From Streptomyces sp. ICBB 8177 (GTDB lineage: Bacteria > Actinomycetota > Actinomycetes > Streptomycetales > Streptomycetaceae), in the NCBI RefSeq assembly GCF_003144095.1, contig NZ_NSKH01000018.1, positions 379,965-443,964 of the forward strand: a stretch of 64,000 nucleotides of DNA. Direction: 5' to 3'. The position numbers and the translations under genes were made by a program. The notes beneath the pieces are model-generated. The model worked only from the letters and a program-made list of their open reading frames with translations. It was not told where the DNA came from and ran no database searches. Below are positions 4,627 through 14,567 of the stretch, in pieces; position 1 is the stretch's first letter; every line of letters starts with the position of its first letter.

Positions 4627-4723
4627 CTTCAGGCGGCAGGGGAAGCCGGTGGGATTCCGGCGCTGTCCCGCAACCGTGTGTCCTCCCTCGGGTGGACGAG
4701 TCGGATCACCTTCCCCGCCTGGA
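4627..4723 (+). ncRNA. Cobalamin riboswitch upstream of the first HWGG-domain gene
   Basis: The core GGGGAAGCCGGTGGGATTCC followed by CTGTCCCGCAACCGTGTG, then GACGAGTCGGATCACCTTCC, is the compact cobalamin riboswitch layout without a long peripheral arm. Terminal pairing joins CTTCAGGCGG (4627-4636) with CCGCCTGGA (4715-4723). Core and spacing are nearly identical to the riboswitch at 8191-8290, which suggests that the two leaders share an ancestor. Confidence 0.9.
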
Positions 4724-4835: not shown

Positions 4836-5399
4836 ATGACCAGGGGCAAGCGGACGGGAGCCGGCAGACACCGGTCGGTCAGAACCGTCGCGGGCGCGGC
4901 GGCCGCGCTCGCCACGCTCGGCGCGACGGCGGTGGGCACGGCCGCACCGGCCTCGGCGTCACCGATCTCCAGCTGCACGGCCACCAAGGGCGCGGTCGTC
5001 GCCGTCGACTTCGGCCACTGGGGTGGCCCCGTGGTGCGCGGCTGCGACGCCAGCCCCACCACCGGCTACAACCTGCTGCACAACGGTGGGTTCACCACGA
5101 CCGGCACACAGCACGACGGCCCCGGCTTCATCTGCCGCATCGGCAACTCCGCGTTCAGCGGCGGCACCCAGTACCCGACGCCCGCGCAGGACGCCTGTGT
5201 CAACACCCCGCCGGCTTCCGCCTACTGGTCGTACTGGATCGCGCCCAAGGGCCAGACGACCTGGACCTACAGCCCGCTCGGCGCCATGAGCGACGTGCCG
5301 AAGGCCGGTGAGGTCGAGGCGTGGACCTTCGGCAGCACGGACATCAACGGCACGACCGGACAGCCGGACTTCACCCCCGCCTCGGTCCGGGCCAGCTGA
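4836..5399 (+). CDS. Secreted HWGG-domain protein (SCO2322-like), short paralogue
   Basis: Exported protein of 187 aa. An Arg/Lys-rich start, a hydrophobic Ala-rich stretch and an APASASP cleavage region give a signal peptide of about 42 residues. The mature part is one domain with VDFGHWGG, FICRIG, YPTPAQDAC, ASAYWSYW and a WTY motif, plus several Cys likely to form disulfides. The same domain forms the first half of the protein at 9928, but this copy lacks the linker and membrane anchor and so should be freely secreted. From memory, such proteins are labelled SCO2322 family in Streptomyces and travel with ECF transporter genes; no biochemical function is known to me. The ATG at 4836 has AGGGAGGGG upstream. 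A cobalamin riboswitch in its leader points to a role in B12 acquisition. Confidence 0.85.
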   Translation: MTRGKRTGAGRHRSVRTVAGAAAALATLGATAVGTAAPASASPISSCTATKGAVVAVDFGHWGGPVVRGCDASPTTGYNLLHNGGFTTTGTQHDGPGFICRIGNSAFSGGTQYPTPAQDACVNTPPASAYWSYWIAPKGQTTWTYSPLGAMSDVPKAGEVEAWTFGSTDINGTTGQPDFTPASVRAS

Positions 5400-5497: not shown

Positions 5498-6430
5498 ATG
5501 CGTATCGTCTCGCTCCTGCCGGCCGCGACCGACCTGGTCGCCGACCTCGGACTCGCCGGGAACCTGACCGGCCGGACACACGAGTGCGACTGGCCCGCCG
5601 AGGCGCTGCGCACGGTCCCCGTGGTGACCGCCTCCGGTATCGACGCCGCGCGGATGAGCAGCCGGGAGATCTCCGAGGCGGTGGGCGGCGCCACCCACCA
5701 CGGGTCCTCGCTGTACTCACTCGACGCCGGGGCGCTGGCCCGGGCCGCGCCGTCGGTGGTCCTCACCCAGGACCTGTGCGACGTGTGCGCGGTCTCGTAC
5801 GAGAGCGTCTCGCGCGCGGTGCGGGTGCTGGACGCGGACACGCGGGTCATCAGTCTGGAGCCGCGCACCCTGGACGAGGTGCTGGGCTGCCTGCGGCAGG
5901 TCGGCGAGGCGCTGGGGGTCGCGCGGACCGCGGTGCGGCGGGAGGCGGTGTGGCGGGAGCGGCTCACCGCGGTCGGCGCCTCGGTGGCGGGCCGGCGTCG
6001 TCCACGGGTGGCGGCGGTGGAGTGGCTCGACCCGTTGTGGCCCGCCGGGCACTGGGTGCCGGACCAGGTGCGCTGGGCGGGCGGCGAACCGCTGCTCGCC
6101 GCGCCCGGAGAACACACCGGCCCCATGACCTGGGAGCGGTTGCGGGACGCACGGCCGGACGTCGTGGTGTTGATGCCCTGTGGCTTCGAGCCCGCGCGCA
6201 CGGAGGCGGAGTACGGGCTGCTGCGCGCGCTGCCCGGGTGGGGTGACCTGCCCGCGGTGCGCTCGGGCGAGGTGTGGGTGGTGGACGGACCGGCTCACTT
6301 CAACCGGCCGGGTCCGCGCGTGGTGCGAGGCGCCGAGATCCTGGCGTACGTCCTGCACGGCGTCCAGCCGCCGCTGCCCGTCACCCGGGACGAGGCGCGG
6401 CGGCTGGAACCCGCAGGCGGAGAAGGGTAG
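5498..6430 (+). CDS. BtuF-like cobalamin-binding protein without signal peptide
   Basis: 310-aa protein of the periplasmic-binding-protein fold family that includes BtuF. The N-terminus [12 protein letters not shown] is the start of the mature fold itself, so no signal peptide or lipobox is present. Family motifs are THECDWP near residue 27, TQDLCDVC near 90 and VVVLMPCGF near 220. Members that lack a signal peptide are widespread and are usually annotated cobalamin-binding protein, with unclear location and role. The gene sits between two riboswitch-controlled gene groups for B12 capture, which supports corrinoid binding. It appears to be transcribed from its own leaderless promoter. Export by a non-classical route or a cytoplasmic role are both open. 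Confidence 0.85.
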
Positions 6431-6465: not shown

Positions 6466-7893
6466 CTAGTTGACGTACCGCAGCGCGATGGTGTCGCCCG
6501 CGCGTATGCGCTGTCCGGCGGTGGCCGGCACGGACGGCGAGCCGTCGACGCTGACCTGCCAGCCCGAACTGCCGTTCACGACATGGCCGTCGGCGGCGGG
6601 CAGCTGTCCCGGCAGGCCCGAGCCGCCGCACCCGGCGGGCGTGGCGTGCGCGGCGGCGGCCGACACCACGGCGCCGAGCGTGACGGTGGCGGCGGTGGGC
6701 GTCACGGTCACGGAGCACAGGCCGGGGGCACCGCTCGGGCCGTCGACGGCGACCGCCAGATCGCTGGGACTCCCGGGCGTGAAGCCCGTCACGCCTTCCC
6801 ACCGGGGTTGCCCCGGGGTGACCGGACGCGGCGCAGGTGCGGTGAACCCCGCACCTGCGAGGGCGCGCAGGGCGTCGATGGAGGAGTACGGCGTCGGCGA
6901 GGTGTCCCCGGGCTGGTAACGGAAGCCGCCGCCGGGGGTGAACTGCTGGGCGAGCAGGAAGTCCACCGGAGTCCTGCCCGCCGTACTGGTGAAGTCATGA
7001 CCCTGCGCCGCGATGCCGCAGGCGTTGAGGCCGGAGACCGCCCAGGCGTTGGAGTCGGTGTTGGCGCCGTACGGGGAGTCGAAGGCGCCGGAGGCGGCGA
7101 GGAGCTTTCCCGCGAGGAACTTCTCGCCCGCCTTCACCGCGGGGTCCGTCCTGGGTACGCCCACGGTGCACAGCGCCGCCATCGTGGCGCCGGTCATGTC
7201 GATGTCGCTGGGTGCGGCGAGGGCCTGGGGGTCATCGGCGGCCTGGCTGTAGTCCCAGCCTCCATCGGTGTGTTCGTTGGCGCGGACGGCGTCGACGGAG
7301 GCGCCGAGCAGCCACTGCGGCACCCGCGGCGCCCCGGTCGTCGTGCGGGCTCCGCCGAGCGCCAGCAGGGCGAAGACGGTGCCGTTGAAGTTCGACGGAG
7401 GACCGAAGTACCCGGGGGCGGACGGCTGCCAGGCGGCGGCGATCTCCGCTATCAGGTTGCGGCCCGCGCTGACCCGGGCGGGGTCGATGCCCGCGGCGTA
7501 GGCGTTGAGCGCGGCCCGTTCGTAGTCGGTGACCACAGGAGCGGAGCCGAACCAGTCGGGCTGGGACAGTTGCGCGCGGTAGACGGCGCGGGCGTTCTTC
7601 GCGGGCGCGCCCGCCGGGGCGAGGTCGGCGGCCGCCACCCCGGCGGCGGCCAGCGCGCTGAACGCCCACTCGTTCGACAGCCCGCCGCCACTGGCGAAGC
7701 TCCCGTCCGAGCCCTGGAGCTGGGAGACGTAGGTGACCGCGCGGGCACGGGCGGCGGCTATCGATCCCGGGGGCGAGGTCGCGACGGCCGGTGTCGCGCC
7801 GGCGAGGGTCGCGACGGCCGCGGCCAGTACCGCGACGACACGGGCACGACGGCCGGGTCTGCCCGCCGAACGGGCTGTTGCTCTGGCTGACAT
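6466..7893 (-). CDS. Secreted transcobalamin/intrinsic-factor-like protein
   Basis: Exported protein of 475 aa. Residues 1-38 form a signal peptide (RRAR, Ala/Val-rich core, PAVA). Residues about 45-350 are a repeated alpha-helical domain with motifs such as SDGSFASGG, TDGGWDYSQ and PGGGFRYQPGD, the pattern of alpha6/alpha6 barrels in prenyltransferases, squalene cyclases and the transcobalamin family. The last 95 residues look like the small beta domain of transcobalamin/intrinsic factor (DUF4430-like), ending GWQVSVDGSPSVPA and RAGDTIALRYVN. This two-domain order is that of the animal B12 carriers. A cobalamin riboswitch lies in its leader and the gene is divergent from the ECF operon, so I infer an extracellular corrinoid-binding protein. 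No cyclase DxDD motif is seen, which argues against a terpene cyclase. Confidence 0.8.
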   Translation of the reverse strand: MSARATARSAGRPGRRARVVAVLAAAVATLAGATPAVATSPPGSIAAARARAVTYVSQLQGSDGSFASGGGLSNEWAFSALAAAGVAAADLAPAGAPAKNARAVYRAQLSQPDWFGSAPVVTDYERAALNAYAAGIDPARVSAGRNLIAEIAAAWQPSAPGYFGPPSNFNGTVFALLALGGARTTTGAPRVPQWLLGASVDAVRANEHTDGGWDYSQAADDPQALAAPSDIDMTGATMAALCTVGVPRTDPAVKAGEKFLAGKLLAASGAFDSPYGANTDSNAWAVSGLNACGIAAQGHDFTSTAGRTPVDFLLAQQFTPGGGFRYQPGDTSPTPYSSIDALRALAGAGFTAPAPRPVTPGQPRWEGVTGFTPGSPSDLAVAVDGPSGAPGLCSVTVTPTAATVTLGAVVSAAAAHATPAGCGGSGLPGQLPAADGHVVNGSSGWQVSVDGSPSVPATAGQRIRAGDTIALRYVN

Positions 7894-7992
7894 GGGGAGT
7901 CCTCCGGTGGGGGCGACGCCGCCACCCCGTCCGCGGAACCCCGCCGATGAGGCGGTCGCCGCCCGATCGCGTGGTCAGGCTTCCGCTGGTGC

Positions 7993-8089
7993 CGCGTCGC
8001 CGGGCGGGCATCCGGGCTCGGCCGGGACACGGCCACACCGTTGCGCCTCAGCCCTGGGCTCGCACCAGGTTCCCCCGCATGGCGACGCG
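7993..8089 (-). ncRNA. Cobalamin riboswitch upstream of the transcobalamin-like gene
   Basis: On the minus strand GGGGGAACCTGGTGCGAGCC, then GCGCAACGGTG and CCGAGCCCGGATGCCCGCC follow the cobalamin aptamer order. A 9-bp closing stem pairs 8081-8089 with 7993-8001. Some core positions deviate (GAGGCGCAACGG for the usual CCCGCAACGG), so it is a slightly degenerate member. The start codon is 100 nt downstream. Confidence 0.82.
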
Positions 8090-8092
8090 CTG

Positions 8093-8121
8093 ACGCTAGC
8101 CAGGGCTTCGGCCCGCGTCCA
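8093..8121 (-). promoter_or_regulatory. Promoter for the minus-strand riboswitch transcript
   Basis: On the minus strand TGGACG (8116-8121) and TAGCGT (8093-8098) are separated by 17 bp. The predicted start falls at the 5' end of the aptamer. Confidence 0.5.
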
Positions 8122-8175
8122 GTGACGGCGGTCACGTCGGGTAGTCCGTTGACTTCCGAAATGACGTCGTGCTCC

Positions 8176-8181
8176 TATGAT
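8176..8181 (+). promoter_or_regulatory. Candidate -10 box of the ECF operon
   Basis: TATGAT is a near-consensus -10 element 9 bp before the riboswitch. The best-looking -35 (TTGACT, 8149-8154) is 21 bp away, which is too far, so the -35 is uncertain. Confidence 0.45.
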
Positions 8182-8190
8182 GTGATTTCG

Positions 8191-8290
8191 CTTCAGGTCC
8201 ATAGCGCAGGGGAAGCCGGTCGAAGTCCGGCGCTGACCCGCAACCGTAGGCCCACCTCGGGGTGGGCGAGCCGGAACACCTGCCCTGGAG
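8191..8290 (+). ncRNA. Cobalamin riboswitch upstream of the ECF transporter operon
   Basis: The core reads GGGGAAGCCGGTCGAAGTCC, CTGACCCGCAACCGTAGG and GGCGAGCCGGAACACCTGCC. Closing pairing joins CTTCAGG (8191-8197) with CCTGGAG (8284-8290). The layout matches the riboswitch at 4627-4723. It is followed by a hairpin that covers the ribosome binding site. Confidence 0.92.
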
Positions 8291-8358
8291 CCACTGAACA
8301 CCGTTCGCCGTCGAGGTCCGCGGCGCGGAAGTGAACGGCCCGGCCCCGCCGGTCCGTT

Positions 8359-8391
8359 CCCCTCTGCCTGCCCTCACGGCCGGCAGAGGGG
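8359..8391 (+). promoter_or_regulatory. Hairpin sequestering the ribosome binding site
   Basis: CCCCTCTGCC (8359-8368) pairs perfectly with GGCAGAGGGG (8382-8391). The second arm contains most of the GAGGGGG ribosome binding site used by the ATG at 8399. This is the expected form of a translational expression platform for the preceding riboswitch. Confidence 0.65.
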
Positions 8392-8398
8392 GTCTTGG

Positions 8399-9928
8399 AT
8401 GAACGGCATCACGGGCGGCCTGCGCAGACGCGCCGCGACGGTCGGCGCCGCGGCGGTCGTGCTCCTCGTCACCACAGGTGGATTCGTCCCGCCCGCGCTC
8501 GCCGCCGCCCAGCCGTCCGGCACGGCCTCGCCCGCCCCGGCCGTCCCCACGACCGCAGTTCCCTCCGTGTCCGCTTCGGCCTCCGCGTCCTCCTCGGCCT
8601 CCGCACCCGCCGCCGTGCCGCCGGTGACCGGGCCTTCGTCGAGCGCGCAGAGCTCCGCCGCCACCGCGAAATCACCGAACCTCACCAAGGGCACCGACTA
8701 CCTGGTCGCCTCCTCCCGGCTCATCGGCGGCCACTACTACGACGCCTACCCGGGTGTGGACTTCGCCGACTACGGCATGACGATCGACGGCGCCTTCGCA
8801 CTCGCCGCGACCGGCCGCGACGACGCGGCGCTGAAGAAGATCGTCGCCTTCTTCCAGAGCCAGGGCAAGGACGGCTCCAGCCGGTCGGTCAACGACTGGA
8901 CCGGCATCGGCACCGCGTACGCGGGCGGCGGCTCCCTCGGCAAGGAAGCGCTCCTCGCCGAGGTGGTCGGCGCCGACCCGCGCGCCTTCGGCGGTCACGA
9001 CCTGATCGCCGCCCTGGACAAGGCGGTGTGCGCCAAGGCGAGCACCGGGACCGACACCAGCTGCGCGGCGCCCGGCAACTACACGTACGCCACCTCGGTG
9101 TTCTCCCAGGCTCTCGGCATCATGGCGCAGATCCGCGCGGGCGACGGCGCCTCCGCGACCGCGCCCGTGAAGTACCTGGAGAGCCTCCAGCACAGCGACG
9201 GCTCCTGGCCGAGCCTGATCCCGGCCACCGGCGACTCCGACGTGGACAGCACCGCCATGGCCGTAATGGCGCTCGCCCTCGTGCACGGCGACGCGGCCTC
9301 CGCCGCCGTGGACCGCGGCGTGCGGTGGATCGCCGCGCAGCAGGAGAAGGACGGCGGCTTCCCCGGCGCGTCCGGTGATTCGACCAACTCCGCCGCGCTC
9401 GCCGTCCAGGGCATGACCCTGCGCAAGAGCACCTACTCCGGGCAGATCGCGCGGGCGCTGGCGTTCCTCGCCGCGCAGCAGAACAGCGACGGCGGCTTCA
9501 ACGTCGCCTCCTCCGGACAGCGTGGCTCCGACGTGCGCGCCTCCACCCAGGTGGTCAGCGGGGCGACCGGGATATCCTTCGGCACCCTGGAACGCGACCT
9601 CTCGGGCAAGCCCGCGCCCACCTCCTCGGCGTCCGCCGCCCCGACCGCCACCGCGACCCTGTCGGCCGGGCCCACCCCGAGCATCAGCACGATCGGCGGC
9701 GCGGGAACCGGCGCTTCGTCAACCAACGTCCTCGCCAACGCTGTTGGGGACGACACGTCGGACGGCGGACTCGGCGGCGTGCTCGCCCACACCGGCACCG
9801 ACGCACGCGGCGAGGCCGAACTCGCGGCGCTCCTGCTGCTCGTCGGCGCCGCGGCCGTCGCCGTCGGCCGCCACCGCTTCCGCCGGACGCCCGGACAGGG
9901 CGCCATCGCGGAAGGACGGCACCGCTGA
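8399..9928 (+). CDS. Cell-wall-anchored transcobalamin-like alpha/alpha-barrel protein
   Basis: Exported protein of 509 aa. Residues 1-35 form a signal peptide ending PALA; a Ser/Ala/Pro-rich spacer runs to about 95. Residues about 95-385 are a repeated alpha-helical domain with HYYDAYPGVDFADYGMT, QHSDGSWPS, KDGGFPGA and SDGGFNVA, again the alpha6/alpha6 barrel of transcobalamin and prenyltransferase relatives. A Thr/Ser/Pro-rich stretch follows, then LAHTG at 462-466, a hydrophobic segment and a basic tail. LAxTG is the motif used by the class E sortases of streptomycetes, so the protein is probably linked to the wall. It lacks the C-terminal beta domain of the 6466 protein. It is first in the riboswitch-controlled operon that encodes an ECF transporter, and I infer that it captures corrinoids at the surface. 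Confidence 0.82.
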   Translation: MNGITGGLRRRAATVGAAAVVLLVTTGGFVPPALAAAQPSGTASPAPAVPTTAVPSVSASASASSSASAPAAVPPVTGPSSSAQSSAATAKSPNLTKGTDYLVASSRLIGGHYYDAYPGVDFADYGMTIDGAFALAATGRDDAALKKIVAFFQSQGKDGSSRSVNDWTGIGTAYAGGGSLGKEALLAEVVGADPRAFGGHDLIAALDKAVCAKASTGTDTSCAAPGNYTYATSVFSQALGIMAQIRAGDGASATAPVKYLESLQHSDGSWPSLIPATGDSDVDSTAMAVMALALVHGDAASAAVDRGVRWIAAQQEKDGGFPGASGDSTNSAALAVQGMTLRKSTYSGQIARALAFLAAQQNSDGGFNVASSGQRGSDVRASTQVVSGATGISFGTLERDLSGKPAPTSSASAAPTATATLSAGPTPSISTIGGAGTGASSTNVLANAVGDDTSDGGLGGVLAHTGTDARGEAELAALLLLVGAAAVAVGRHRFRRTPGQGAIAEGRHR

Positions 9929-10827
9929 TGCGCCGACCGGCCGCCCTGCTCGGGGCCGGCGCGCTCACCGGCCTCGCGGCCTTCACCGGCCTCGGCGTCA
10001 CCGCGACACCCGCCGTGGCCGCCGCCGAGCCGATGAGCCTCTGCACCACCACCAGCGGTGTCGTGCTCGCCGTGGACTTCGGCCACTGGGGAGGCCCGAT
10101 CCTGCGCGCCTGCGGTACCACACCCACCACCGGGTACGACCTGCTGAACGAGGGAGGCTGGCGCACCACCGGCGACCAGCACGACGGTCCCGCGTTCATC
10201 TGCCGCATCGGCTACAGCGGTTACCAAGGCGGCGCGCAGTACCCGACCCCGGCGCAGGACCCCTGCGTGGTCACGCCACCGGCGTCCGCCTACTGGTCCT
10301 ACTGGCATGCCGACCCCGGCCAGAACACCTGGACCTACAGCCAGCTCGGCGCGATGAGCTATCACCCCGAGCCCGGCAGCGTCGACCTGTGGATCTTCGG
10401 CGGCACCAACATCGCGGGCACCGAGGGCCGCCCCGCGTACTCGCCCGACCTCCTGCGCGCCCACAACACCGCGCCCACCGGTCCGACCGCCCCCGCCACG
10501 CAGGGCTCCGGATCCACGGGCGGGAGTACCGGCGGCCGGACGGGCAGCGCACCGCACGCGCCCGCCGGCGGCGGTGCGACGTCGCCGAGTCCGAGCGCGA
10601 GGGCCAAGCCGTCGGGCTCCGCGTCGGCGTCCGCCTCGGTCTCGGCACCGGCGAGCGGCGCGGACGTCTCACGTCCTCCCACGACACGGGTCGTGGACGC
10701 CGTGCCCGCACCGCCCGCCAAGCGGTCCAGCGGCTCCGGCGTGGCGACCGTGGTCGCCATCGCGCTCGGGGCGTCCCTGGCCGCGGCGGCCGGTGTGACG
10801 ACGTGGCGCAGGCGACGAGCGGGCTGA
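9928..10827 (+). CDS. Membrane-anchored HWGG-domain protein (SCO2322-like)
   Basis: 299-aa exported protein. A signal peptide (about 1-34) is followed by the HWGG domain (35-175: VDFGHWGG, FICRIG, YPTPAQDPC, ASAYWSYW, WTY), the domain also found in the 4836 protein. A Ser/Gly/Thr/Pro-rich linker (about 180-270) and one C-terminal transmembrane segment with a RRRR tail follow. The topology puts the domain outside the membrane on a flexible stalk. Its ATG overlaps the stop of the upstream gene (TGATG), so the two are translationally coupled. It lies between the surface alpha/alpha-barrel protein and the ECF transporter, so it may pass the ligand to the membrane complex. This is inferred from context only. 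Confidence 0.85.
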   Translation: MRRPAALLGAGALTGLAAFTGLGVTATPAVAAAEPMSLCTTTSGVVLAVDFGHWGGPILRACGTTPTTGYDLLNEGGWRTTGDQHDGPAFICRIGYSGYQGGAQYPTPAQDPCVVTPPASAYWSYWHADPGQNTWTYSQLGAMSYHPEPGSVDLWIFGGTNIAGTEGRPAYSPDLLRAHNTAPTGPTAPATQGSGSTGGSTGGRTGSAPHAPAGGGATSPSPSARAKPSGSASASASVSAPASGADVSRPPTTRVVDAVPAPPAKRSSGSGVATVVAIALGASLAAAAGVTTWRRRRAG

Positions 10828-10831
10828 GCCG

Positions 10832-12013
10832 GTGCCCGTACGCCACCCCGCCGTCGCCGCACTGAGCAGCAGCGCCCGGCCGCCGCGCAACCTGCACCCG
10901 GTGGCCTGGTGGATCTGGGCCGCCGGTCTGGCGACCGCCGCCAGCCGCACCACCAACCCCCTGCTGCTCCTGCTGGTGTTCGCGGTCCTCGGCTACGTGG
11001 TCACCGTCCGCCGCACCGACGCGCCCTGGGCCCGCGGCTTCCCGTACTACCTGTGGCTGGCGCTGACCGTGATCGCCATCCGTGTGGTCTTCCGCGTCGT
11101 CTTCGAAAGCGGTGTCACACCGGCCGACCACATCATGTTCACCCTGCCGCACCTCCCCACGCCGCGCTGGTACGCGGGCATCCAGATCGGCGGCCCCGTG
11201 TCACTGGAGGCCGCGCTGTCCGCCGCCTTCGACGGGCTGCGCCTGGCCTGCCTGATGTGCTGCGTCGGCGCCGCCAACACCCTGGCCAACCCCAAGCGCG
11301 CCCTGCGCGTGCTGCCCGGCGCGCTCTACGAACTGGGCGTGGCCGTCACCGTGTCCCTGAGCGTCGCGCCCCAGCTCATCGAGTCCGTCCAGCGGGTGCG
11401 GCGGGCCCGCAGGCTGCGCGCCGGGAACACCAAGGGCCTGCGCGCAGTACGCGGCATCGTCGTCCCGGTCCTGGAGGACGCGCTGGAACGCTCCCTCGCG
11501 CTGGCCGCCGCCATGGACTCGCGCGGCTACGGCCGCTCCGGCACCGCGACCCGCGCCTCCCGCCGCCTCACCGGGGCGTTGATGCTGCTGGGGATGCTGG
11601 GACTGTGCACCGGTGTGTACGGGCTGCTCGACGGCACCACACCCCGCCTGCTCGGGCTGCCCGCCCTGCTGGCCGGAGCCGTGCTGTGCGGCGCGGGACT
11701 GATGACGGGAGGCCGCCGGGTGCGTCGCACCGGATACCGGCCCGACCCCTGGCTCGCCCCGGAGTGGATCACCGCCGGATGCGGTGTCGTGGTGGCGGTG
11801 ACGCTCTTCGCGTCCACCGGCTACAGCGCCACCCAGCTCAACCCCAGCCTTTATCCGCTGAGTTGGCCGCCCCTGCCGCTGGTCCCCTCCGCCGCGATCC
11901 TGCTGGCCGCCGTCGCGGGCCTCGCGGCGCCGCGTCCCGCGGCCGTTCCTGGGCCCGCACCGGGGGCCGCCCTTCCCGCCTCGCCCGACACACCGACGGA
12001 GACCGCCGCGTGA
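10832..12013 (+). CDS. ECF transporter transmembrane subunit EcfT
   Basis: 393-aa integral membrane protein of the CbiQ/EcfT family, the scaffold that couples the ATPases to the substrate-binding S subunit. Several hydrophobic segments are visible between residues 25 and 320. The two short cytoplasmic coupling motifs of the family are present as RRARRLR and MDSRGYGR. The start is GTG at 10832, 5 bp after the preceding stop. The C-terminal tail is Ala/Pro-rich. The gene is followed by a GTGA overlap with the fused ATPase gene. With the next two genes it makes a complete dedicated (group I) ECF transporter; corrinoid as the substrate is inferred from the riboswitch. Confidence 0.9.
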   Translation: MPVRHPAVAALSSSARPPRNLHPVAWWIWAAGLATAASRTTNPLLLLLVFAVLGYVVTVRRTDAPWARGFPYYLWLALTVIAIRVVFRVVFESGVTPADHIMFTLPHLPTPRWYAGIQIGGPVSLEAALSAAFDGLRLACLMCCVGAANTLANPKRALRVLPGALYELGVAVTVSLSVAPQLIESVQRVRRARRLRAGNTKGLRAVRGIVVPVLEDALERSLALAAAMDSRGYGRSGTATRASRRLTGALMLLGMLGLCTGVYGLLDGTTPRLLGLPALLAGAVLCGAGLMTGGRRVRRTGYRPDPWLAPEWITAGCGVVVAVTLFASTGYSATQLNPSLYPLSWPPLPLVPSAAILLAAVAGLAAPRPAAVPGPAPGAALPASPDTPTETAA

Positions 12014-13713
12014 TCCGCTTCGACCACGTCACCGTCACCTACGACGGAGAGCCGGAACCCGTGCTGCGCGACGTGGACCTGCGCGTCGAGGAGGGCGAAC
12101 TGTGCCTCGTCGTCGGCCGCACCGGCGTGGGCAAGTCCACTCTGCTGGGCACGGTCAACGGCCTGGTCCCGCACTTCACCGGCGGGACCCTCGCCGGACG
12201 GGTCGTCGTCGACGGCAGGGACACCGCCCACCATCCGCCGCGCGAACTCGCCGACGTGGTCGGGGTGGTCGGCCAGGACCCCCTGGCCGGATTCGTCACC
12301 GACACGGTGGAGGAGGAACTCGCCTACGTCATGGAGCAGTTGGCGGTCCCACCGCAGGTGATGCGCAAGCGGGTGGAGGAGACCCTCGACCTGCTCGGCC
12401 TGGCCGACCTGCGCCACCGCGCCCTGCGCGAACTCTCCGGCGGCCAGCAGCAGCGCGTCGCGATCGGCTCCGTGCTCACGGCGCACCCGCGCGTCCTGAT
12501 CCTGGACGAGCCCACCTCCGCGCTCGACCCGACCGCCGCGGAGGACGTCCTCGCCGCCGTCACCCGCCTCGTCCACGACCTCGGCGTCACCGTGCTGCTG
12601 GCCGAACACCGCCTGGAGCGCGTCGTGCAGTACGCCGACCGCATCGTGCACCTCACCGGGGACGGCACTGTCGAGGACGGGCCCGCGCGGCAGATCTTCC
12701 GCACCGCCTCCGTGGCCCCGCCCGTGGTCGACCTCGGACGGCTCGCCGGATGGGATCCCCTGCCGATGTCGGTACGCGACGCACGCCGTATGGCGGCCCC
12801 TCTGCGCCGCCGCCTGGAGTCGGCACCCGCACCTCGGCCCCCGTCCGGCCCGAAGACCGGCGACCCTCTTCTCACCGCACGCGGCGTGCTCGTGCGCTAT
12901 GGGCCCACGGTCGCCGTCGCGGGTGTCGACACCGTGCTGCACGGCGGCGAGGTCGTGGCGCTGATGGGCCGCAACGGTTCCGGCAAGTCCTCGCTGCTGT
13001 GGGCCTTGCAGGGCTCGGGGCCGAGGCAGGGCGGCACGGTCAAGGTCAGCGGCACGCTCCCCGCACGAAACGGCGAAGGGCACCACGACCCCGGGAAGCT
13101 CGCCCCCGGCGCCGCGCGCACCCTGGTGGGCCTGGTCCCGCAGACCCCCACCGACCTGCTGTACCTGGACTCGGTGGGGGCCGAACTCGCCCAGGCGGAC
13201 CGGGAATCGGCCACCACGGCCGAGGAGGCCACCCGGGGGAAGCCCGCCGACCCGGGTCGGCCGTCCGCCCGCGCGTTGCTCGACCGGATCGCGCCCGGCA
13301 TCGGCGACGCCGTGCACCCCCGCGACCTGTCGGAGGGCCAGAAGCTCTCCCTGGTCCTCGCCATCCAGCTCGCCGCCACACCACGTGTCGTCCTGCTCGA
13401 CGAGCCGACGCGGGGCCTGGACTACCAGGCGAAGACCGCGCTGATCGCGATCGTGCGGTCGCTGGCGGCGGAGGGGCGAGCCGTGGTGGTCTCGACGCAC
13501 GACGTCGAGTTCGTGGCGTCCTGCGCCGACCGCGTCGTCGTCATGGCCGAGGGCGAGGTGGTGGCCGACGGGCCCACGGCCGACATCGTGGTGTCGTCCC
13601 CCGCGTTCGCCCCCCAGACGGCGAAGATCCTCAGCCCGCTCGCTTACTTGACGCCTCATCAAGTCGCGGCCGCACTGGCCGCGTTGCCCGCGTCGGCGGG
13701 GGAGGAGCGGTGA
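12010..13713 (+). CDS. ECF transporter ATPase, fused A-A' protein
   Basis: 567-aa protein with two complete ABC ATPase domains in tandem, equivalent to EcfA and EcfA'. The first has Walker A GRTGVGKST, signature LSGGQQQR and Walker B VLILDEPTSALD. The second, after a linker near residues 240-285, has Walker A GRNGSGKSS, a modified signature LSEGQKLS and Walker B VVLLDEPTRGLD. A Gly/Ala/Pro-rich insertion lies in the second domain. The GTG start at 12010 overlaps the ecfT stop; an open frame further upstream is a shadow of ecfT. It powers the transporter at the cytoplasmic face of the membrane. Confidence 0.93.
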   Translation: MIRFDHVTVTYDGEPEPVLRDVDLRVEEGELCLVVGRTGVGKSTLLGTVNGLVPHFTGGTLAGRVVVDGRDTAHHPPRELADVVGVVGQDPLAGFVTDTVEEELAYVMEQLAVPPQVMRKRVEETLDLLGLADLRHRALRELSGGQQQRVAIGSVLTAHPRVLILDEPTSALDPTAAEDVLAAVTRLVHDLGVTVLLAEHRLERVVQYADRIVHLTGDGTVEDGPARQIFRTASVAPPVVDLGRLAGWDPLPMSVRDARRMAAPLRRRLESAPAPRPPSGPKTGDPLLTARGVLVRYGPTVAVAGVDTVLHGGEVVALMGRNGSGKSSLLWALQGSGPRQGGTVKVSGTLPARNGEGHHDPGKLAPGAARTLVGLVPQTPTDLLYLDSVGAELAQADRESATTAEEATRGKPADPGRPSARALLDRIAPGIGDAVHPRDLSEGQKLSLVLAIQLAATPRVVLLDEPTRGLDYQAKTALIAIVRSLAAEGRAVVVSTHDVEFVASCADRVVVMAEGEVVADGPTADIVVSSPAFAPQTAKILSPLAYLTPHQVAAALAALPASAGEER

Positions 13714-14567
13714 CGAGGAGACCCCGCACTCCGGTCGCCGTGCGCCTCCACCCCCGCGCCGCGACGGCGGCCGGACTCGCCGCGTTCGTCGGGGTGGTGG
13801 CGTTCTTCTGGCCGTTCGTCGTCGCACCGGGCAGGTTCGGCTCGTCGCTGACGCCACCGTTGATCTTCGGCAGTCTCCTCGTCCTGGTGCTCGCCGTCGT
13901 CTTCGCCGAGATCGCGGACGGCGGCATCGACTCCAAAGCCCTGGCCATGCTCGGGGTGCTGTCCGCGGTCAACGCGGCGCTGCGCCCGCTGGGCGCGGGC
14001 ACGGCCGGGGTCGAGACCGTGTTCTTCACCCTGGTGCTGGCCGGCCGGGTCTTCGGCGCTGGCTTCGGCTTCACCCTGGGATGCACCTCGCTGTTCGCGT
14101 CCGCGCTGATCACCGGCGGGGTCGGGCCGTGGATGCCGTACCAGATGTTCGGCTGCGCGTTCGTCGGCATGCTGGCGGGCTGGCTGCCGCGACTCGGCGG
14201 GCGCAAGGAGATCCTGGTGCTGGCCCTGTACGGTGCCTTCTCCGGTTACCTGTTCGGATTCCTGCTGAACCTCTCCTTCTGGCCGTTCTCCGTGGACCCG
14301 CACAGCTCGATCGCCTACCTGCCGGGCCTGCCCTTCACCCAGCAGTGGCACCGCTATCTGGCGTTCGACGCGGCGACGTCGCTGGGGTGGGACACGGGAA
14401 GGGCGGTGACGACGTTCCTGGGCGTGCTCGTCGTGGGGCCCGCGGTTCTCGGCTCCTTCCGCCGAGCCGCCCGCCGAGCCCACTTCGAGGCCCCGGTCCG
14501 CTTCGAGCCCGTGGGCGGCGAGGACTCTCAGCCGACCGGGACGGAGCGCTGGGCGGGGCCGTTGTAG
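13710..14567 (+). CDS. ECF transporter substrate-specific (S) subunit, CbrT-like
   Basis: 285-aa hydrophobic protein with about six predicted membrane segments, starting at a GTG that overlaps the ATPase stop and has GGAGGAG upstream. Its position and topology are those of an ECF S component, the subunit that binds the vitamin. The large loop with SSIAYLPGLPFTQQWHRYL and the segment GFGFTLGCTSLFASALITGGVGP resemble CbrT-type S components, which bind cobalamin and its precursors. The assignment to cobalamin relies mainly on the riboswitch at the head of the operon. The last 40 bp overlap the convergent prpC gene. Confidence 0.82.
   Translation: MTRRPRTPVAVRLHPRAATAAGLAAFVGVVAFFWPFVVAPGRFGSSLTPPLIFGSLLVLVLAVVFAEIADGGIDSKALAMLGVLSAVNAALRPLGAGTAGVETVFFTLVLAGRVFGAGFGFTLGCTSLFASALITGGVGPWMPYQMFGCAFVGMLAGWLPRLGGRKEILVLALYGAFSGYLFGFLLNLSFWPFSVDPHSSIAYLPGLPFTQQWHRYLAFDAATSLGWDTGRAVTTFLGVLVVGPAVLGSFRRAARRAHFEAPVRFEPVGGEDSQPTGTERWAGPL

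Follow-up and report, generated by a model that had tools for sequence, protein, structure and literature searches.

A riboswitch-controlled, transcobalamin-like corrinoid trap probably supplies a CbrT-type transporter at the surface of Streptomyces sp. ICBB 8177

What do exported proteins that bear the names of squalene cyclases do behind cobalamin riboswitches? This question is raised by a 64,000-nucleotide stretch of the genome of Streptomyces sp. ICBB 8177 (NZ_NSKH01000018.1, positions 379,965-443,964), hereafter the window, whose own positions supply all coordinates and gene names used here unless a locus is named. An original prediction held that two neighbouring genes, 6466-7893 and 8399-9928, encode transcobalamin- or intrinsic-factor-like proteins whose role in B12 capture is concealed by prenyltransferase/squalene-type annotation. 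Their coordinates proved correct, and the genes are divergent, with 6466 on the minus and 8399 on the plus strand. To these our analysis adds a third riboswitch with a beta-domain-only gene (4836-5399), a further beta-domain gene (9928-10827) and genes of an energy-coupling factor (ECF) transporter that extend to 14567. Taken as a whole, the locus very probably encodes a riboswitch-controlled, surface-tethered, modular corrinoid trap of the transcobalamin kind that supplies a CbrT-type ECF transporter, so that surface proteins of this soil actinobacterium probably catch scarce B12.

Three units of the window stand behind cobalamin riboswitches (Table 1). That 6466 and 8399 would each be preceded by one had been anticipated, and the element ahead of 8399 exceeds the gathering cut-off of the Rfam model RF00174 (31.5 bits), while those ahead of 6466 and 4836 fall below it and were recognised with R1, a covariance model derived from 35 short riboswitch relatives that include the window's sites, whose R1 scores are thus partly given by construction. 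The helices of R1 covary (0.385 against 0.131 when shuffled, 0/500; 114 double-change cells against 42.7 when shuffled). Strong R1 matches lie closely upstream of alpha- or beta-domain genes in 168/169 cases; as the scanned loci were selected by the gene for the alpha-beta (AB) protein, of which 6466 is the window's copy, the fairer count is that of AB orthologues with a short riboswitch 5' of the gene, 69/70. In a sample drawn independently of that gene, by searching the phylum with the beta profile, 28/30 loci carry a riboswitch 5' of their alpha or beta genes, two of the 28 (L160 and L163) as weak matches. The chance that one falls within 900 bases upstream of a given unit is about 0.001, given 13 sites in 6.3 Mb. 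A search around 7880-8420 for sigma-70-type promoters and intrinsic terminators found none. A study of S. lividans listed two cobalamin riboswitches by Rfam, neither of them ahead of such genes (PMC8079986).

Both divergent genes encode exported proteins with signal-like N-termini, as had been proposed, and an alpha/alpha toroid is present in each: the match to SQHop_cyclase_C is clear in 8399 (5.5e-11, 42.5 bits, over the cut-off) and weak in 6466 (16.7 bits, below it). The DUF4430-like C-terminus expected of 6466 also scores beneath the cut-off by itself (PF14478, 15.5-17.9 bits against 23.8) and is suggested by its relatives, 11 of 23 orthologous C-termini matching DUF4430 (best 1.8e-5) and one, from L095, reaching 24.8 bits, over the cut-off. 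A fold search with 6466, in which toroid matches were tied among cyclases, complement and transcobalamin, started from a poor model and was not used as evidence; sequence-only searches of the PDB with 6466, DUF4430 and beta profiles returned nothing usable. In 8399, the predicted sorting signal was upheld, with a hydrophobic stretch and a basic tail after LAHTG and with LAxTG in 61/64 orthologues, and five sortase (PF04203) matches in the genome provide the other component of an LPXTG-type system. The likeness to transcobalamin and intrinsic factor claimed for both proteins is supported for 6466, with its toroid and DUF4430-like domain, and does not stand for 8399 alone, which corresponds to the alpha half only. 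The 8399 protein would form the alpha half of a split pair, with the neighbouring 9928 and/or 4836 proteins as its presumed beta partners. AB genes occur in 9/147 genomes and 8399-type genes in 10/147, with both present in 9.

Pfam gives no match for 9928, and neither 9928 nor 4836 matches DUF4430. An AlphaFold2 model of 9928, built from a 92-member alignment that reaches down to 22% identity, attained a predicted local distance difference test score (pLDDT) of 92.8 and a predicted template modelling score (pTM) of 0.89. Transcobalamin, intrinsic factor, haptocorrin and 3u7z, a gut-bacterial protein of solved structure and, in our reading, of the DUF4430 type, make up the first 15 structural neighbours of the model (Z 8.4-9.2 across 92-98 residues); other beta-grasp proteins come next, at Z 6.1 and 5.2. 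Foldseek placed the same proteins on top, with modest E-values (best 3.5e-3). The predicted order runs from two strands (13-18, 26-31) through a helix (37-43) to four further strands (46-51, 55-64, 90-96, 120-126), and the fold match to the beta domains of the carriers covers this hairpin-after-helix arrangement, described as the hallmark of the transcobalamin clade by Burroughs et al. 2007 (PMC1796856). The 9928 protein is therefore predicted to fold as a transcobalamin/intrinsic-factor beta domain.

The operon headed by 8399 continues through 9928 into genes for an S-T-A-A' transporter. A profile of 19 S components that include distant actinobacterial members, A12, matched 6FNP chain A, taken as CbrT from its length and label, with FolT next at E 0.035, and an S-component orthologue scores over the PF12822 cut-off. 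ECF-CbrT is a functionally proven cobalamin transporter of solved structure, and CbrT accepts cobinamide too (PMC5997447).

Table 1. Features of the putative corrinoid-capture locus, in window positions
Feature	Coordinates	Strand	Evidence or remark
Short cobalamin riboswitch, 5' of the 4836 beta gene	4629-4723	+	R1 76.6 bits; RF00174 28.6 bits, below cut-off
Secreted beta-domain-only protein (B1)	4836-5399	+	60% identity to 9928 within the alignment
BtuF-like (Peripla_BP_2) protein lacking a signal peptide, role uncertain	5498-6430	+	PF01497 2.3e-13
Secreted alpha (toroid) + beta (DUF4430-like) protein (AB)	6466-7893	-	Profile matches, orthologue C-termini
Short cobalamin riboswitch, 5' of the AB gene	7994-8085	-	R1 73.1 bits; RF00174 28.0 bits at 8006-8075, below cut-off
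Cobalamin riboswitch heading operon 8399-14567	8178-8302	+	RF00174 41.6 bits, above cut-off; R1 91.5 bits
Secreted alpha-toroid protein with LAHTG cell-wall sorting signal	8399-9928	+	SQHop_cyclase_C match; heads operon
Secreted beta-domain protein with C-terminal membrane anchor (B2)	9928-10827	+	Residues 33-176 (10024-10455) modelled
EcfT-like (CbiQ) transmembrane component	10832-12013	+	PF02361 2.4e-12
EcfA-EcfA' fused ATPases	12010-13713	+	PF00005 in two stretches, 2.7e-44; ECF_ATPase 2.8e-80
ECF S component, CbrT-related through the wider family	13710-14567	+	Profile A12 vs 6FNP chain A, E 6.2e-17

The same modules recur in relatives. In the 70 orthologous loci, which come from named genomes chiefly of Streptomyces and Kitasatospora but also of Micromonospora and Dactylosporangium, the common order is riboswitch, beta-toroid-toroid-LAxTG gene, 9928-like beta gene and ECF genes, with a riboswitch and the AB gene in divergent orientation. 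In most of L020-L089 (e.g. L021, 4673-7570, minus strand) the beta-toroid-toroid-LAxTG gene is one frame of some 950 residues, and since the 4836 beta domain and the 8399 toroid, separate in the window genome, are fused in most relatives, this fusion links them; alpha-beta-transmembrane fusions are found in L154/L155. The beta family occurs in 33/296 genomes and 26/199 genera of the phylum, and most of the 30 loci found by its profile retain the order alpha-beta-EcfT-EcfA. Attachment to the wall differs among loci, being of the LPxTG type or, in L139, by CWB2 repeats, and in L147 (3639-4190, minus strand) and L150 (3458-4012, minus strand) beta lipoproteins stand beside ECF genes with neither an alpha gene nor a riboswitch. 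L022, L048, L068 and L087 contain a separate unit of riboswitch, secreted toroid (about 360 aa) and secreted beta protein (159 aa). Standalone DUF4430 genes are present in L021, L031, L041, L060, L083, L090-L094 and others, about 20 of them with their own short cobalamin riboswitch, and some adjoin a toroid gene or a BtuF-like gene. The BtuF-like protein of the window is possibly an intracellular corrinoid-binding protein; its gene adjoins AB or DUF4430 genes in L021, L031, L041, L060, L077, L083 and L093.

A fourth short riboswitch, besides the three of the window, precedes a paralogous SCO2321-like operon (L013). In proteins of the SCO2322 family the YWSFW half precedes the VALVLDFG half. 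When the 9928 profile was compared with a tandem-doubled SCO2322 profile, a single run of 122 columns was obtained (E 1.2e-14, score 97), against a score of 74 when only one copy was used; the second half by itself reached 28.8, more than the best of 60 column shuffles (16.3). Judged by these profile alignments, the SCO2322 beta domain is a circular permutant of that of 9928 (L013, 1477-2283, minus strand; L096-L125). SCO2322 is found in 44/60 genomes of the order, and a clear riboswitch lies near the locus edge in at least 14 of 30 SCO2322 loci drawn from these genomes and a weak one in two more, counts that are lower bounds as L096-L125 end near the riboswitch. We regard it as somewhat likelier than its opposite that Actinomycetota possess a widespread, modular 'split transcobalamin' for B12 capture, whose domains are freely joined, split or duplicated, variously anchored and, in SCO2322, even circularly permuted, under a short riboswitch that often falls below Rfam thresholds, and that this is a main B12 route of the phylum, including SCO2321-2322 of most Streptomyces.

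The wider genome gives the locus a regulatory context. It contains 13 cobalamin riboswitch matches, and those inspected head cobN, other cob genes, NiCoT transporters, nrd genes, mmsA, metE and an SCO2321-SCO2322-EcfT operon. Around the capture genes, within the window (398-34285), lie class Ib nrdEF, prpC-prpB-prpD of the methylcitrate cycle, mmsA and metE, several of them behind cobalamin riboswitches (4160, 25460, 31601), and the presence of such B12-independent alternatives fits derepression at low B12. In L015 (488-1484, plus strand) a cobalamin riboswitch precedes a seemingly truncated NiCoT transporter gene, of which intact copies are present in L016 and L017.

From the positions of the riboswitches, the order of the genes, the signals for export and anchoring, the fold predicted for the beta domain and the family link of the S component, we infer that the ligand is a corrinoid, that alpha and beta domains pair and that the ligand is handed over to the ECF transporter. 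At low intracellular B12, the riboswitches would allow expression of the exported alpha (alpha/alpha-toroid) and beta (transcobalamin-type beta-grasp) proteins, which would be tethered to the wall through LAHTG, tethered to the membrane or secreted. One alpha and one beta domain would sandwich the corrinoid at the cell surface in the manner of transcobalamin, the genome apparently holding these halves both fused (6466) and separate (8399 with 9928 and/or 4836), and the corrinoid would then pass to the CbrT-like S component and be imported with EcfT and EcfA of the same operon.

Other accounts of these genes must be set against this one. Pfam and NCBIfam name 8399 SQHop_cyclase and Prenyltrans, which would suit secreted enzymes of the prenyltransferase/squalene cyclase superfamily that are unrelated to B12 and only incidentally neighbours of riboswitches. 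We hold this to be extremely improbable: as the original prediction had it for the DxDD cyclase motif, neither the window proteins nor any of the 56 and 66 orthologues examined contain D.DD, and the export signals and wall anchors, the riboswitches ahead of 69/70 and 28/30, and a beta partner with the transcobalamin fold all speak against it. There is somewhat more room, though still little, for a ligand other than complete cobalamin, be it cobalt, a different tetrapyrrole or a corrinoid precursor (cobinamide, for example), given that the EcfT is CbiQ-like, that CbrT itself takes cobinamide and that cobalt transporters of this genome likewise stand behind cobalamin riboswitches. Against this, the S component is a member of the CbrT/ECF_trnsprt family, no CbiM match appeared and the beta fold is that of B12 carriers; cobinamide capture, moreover, would be a sub-case of the corrinoid trap. 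Between these two in probability, and thus quite unlikely, is binding of corrinoids chiefly for sequestration from competitors or for surface storage rather than import. It would agree with secretion of the AB and 4836 proteins with no evident anchor and with the position of AB outside the ECF operon, but anchored 8399 and 9928 share one operon with the transporter, and low-B12 regulation in common with metE and nrdEF suits acquisition.

The corrinoid trap itself has four observations to contend with. Sequence profiles give no link between the 9928 beta family and DUF4430; this link is structural. The structural comparison with transcobalamin envisaged by the original prediction came out well for the 9928 beta model and failed for 6466, whose prediction, from an alignment of 9 sequences, is poor (pLDDT 43.8), so that its two-domain arrangement is putative. 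The Streptomyces-type S components taken by themselves do not match 6FNP, and the CbrT match requires the wider family, with whose distant members they align at E 4e-53 and 5.7e-20 (hhalign 99-100%). Finally, cobN and other cob genes are present in the genome, and the host may be able to synthesise its own B12, in contrast to the auxotrophs emphasised by the 2007 paper. On balance, the proposal that B12 capture hides behind a squalene-type annotation is best backed by regulation, neighbourhood, S-component family and predicted beta structure.

Extracellular B12 capture by Gram-positives is largely untested by experiment, and we found no experimental test of bacterial transcobalamin-like proteins in the open-access literature. 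If our account is right, bacteria of a genetically tractable model genus share the two-domain grip on B12 with the carriers of human blood and stomach, a function is given to squalene-cyclase-like or hypothetical proteins, the SCO2321/SCO2322 families included, and there are consequences for the suggestion, made in 2007, that animals took over their B12 carriers from bacteria. The idea itself has a precedent, having been put forward in that year for low-GC Gram-positives, planctomycetes and archaea (PMC1796856). As far as the open literature shows, what is new is an actinobacterial family with an unrecognised beta domain, its occurrence in both split and fused states, the permutation, the short riboswitch and the link to the CbrT family.

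Compared with known systems, the locus most resembles the following. Animal transcobalamin, intrinsic factor and haptocorrin likewise join an alpha/alpha toroid to a beta-grasp domain, in what appears to be the same order as 6466, and the predicted 9928 fold matches the entire beta domain of transcobalamin (residues 310-409). They differ in that the window's halves are split into wall- and membrane-anchored proteins and show no match at the sequence level; window proteins do not match the animal family PF01122 up to E 1, and we therefore class the system as working like that family, not as a member of it. The transcobalamin-like soluble-ligand-binding beta-grasp (SLBB) proteins of Burroughs et al., encoded in CbiO/CbiQ operons and predicted to scavenge B12 (PMC1796856), share with the window the beta-grasp and toroid, export and anchor signals and CbiO/CbiQ-type neighbours. 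For this clade Burroughs et al. list low-GC Gram-positives, planctomycetes and euryarchaea, whereas the window represents Actinomycetota and has a short riboswitch, an S component of the CbrT family and a beta family that escapes Pfam. ECF-CbrT of Lactobacillus delbrueckii has the same S-component family and ECF architecture and uses a shared module (PMC5997447), whereas the window has dedicated T and fused A-A' genes in the alpha/beta operon; the annotation 'lipoprotein component of putative cobalamin ECF transporter' already exists (PMC9963975). In Cutibacterium acnes, cobalamin riboswitches reportedly precede adhesin-like and thrombospondin-repeat genes of unknown role (PMC9600381), which might be set beside the window system. 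In the SCO2321/SCO2322 families (NF053823, NF040672), too, a short cobalamin riboswitch is followed by alpha and beta genes and then by EcfT, but these families are paralogous, their beta domain is permuted and the window proteins score far under the cut-offs of both families.

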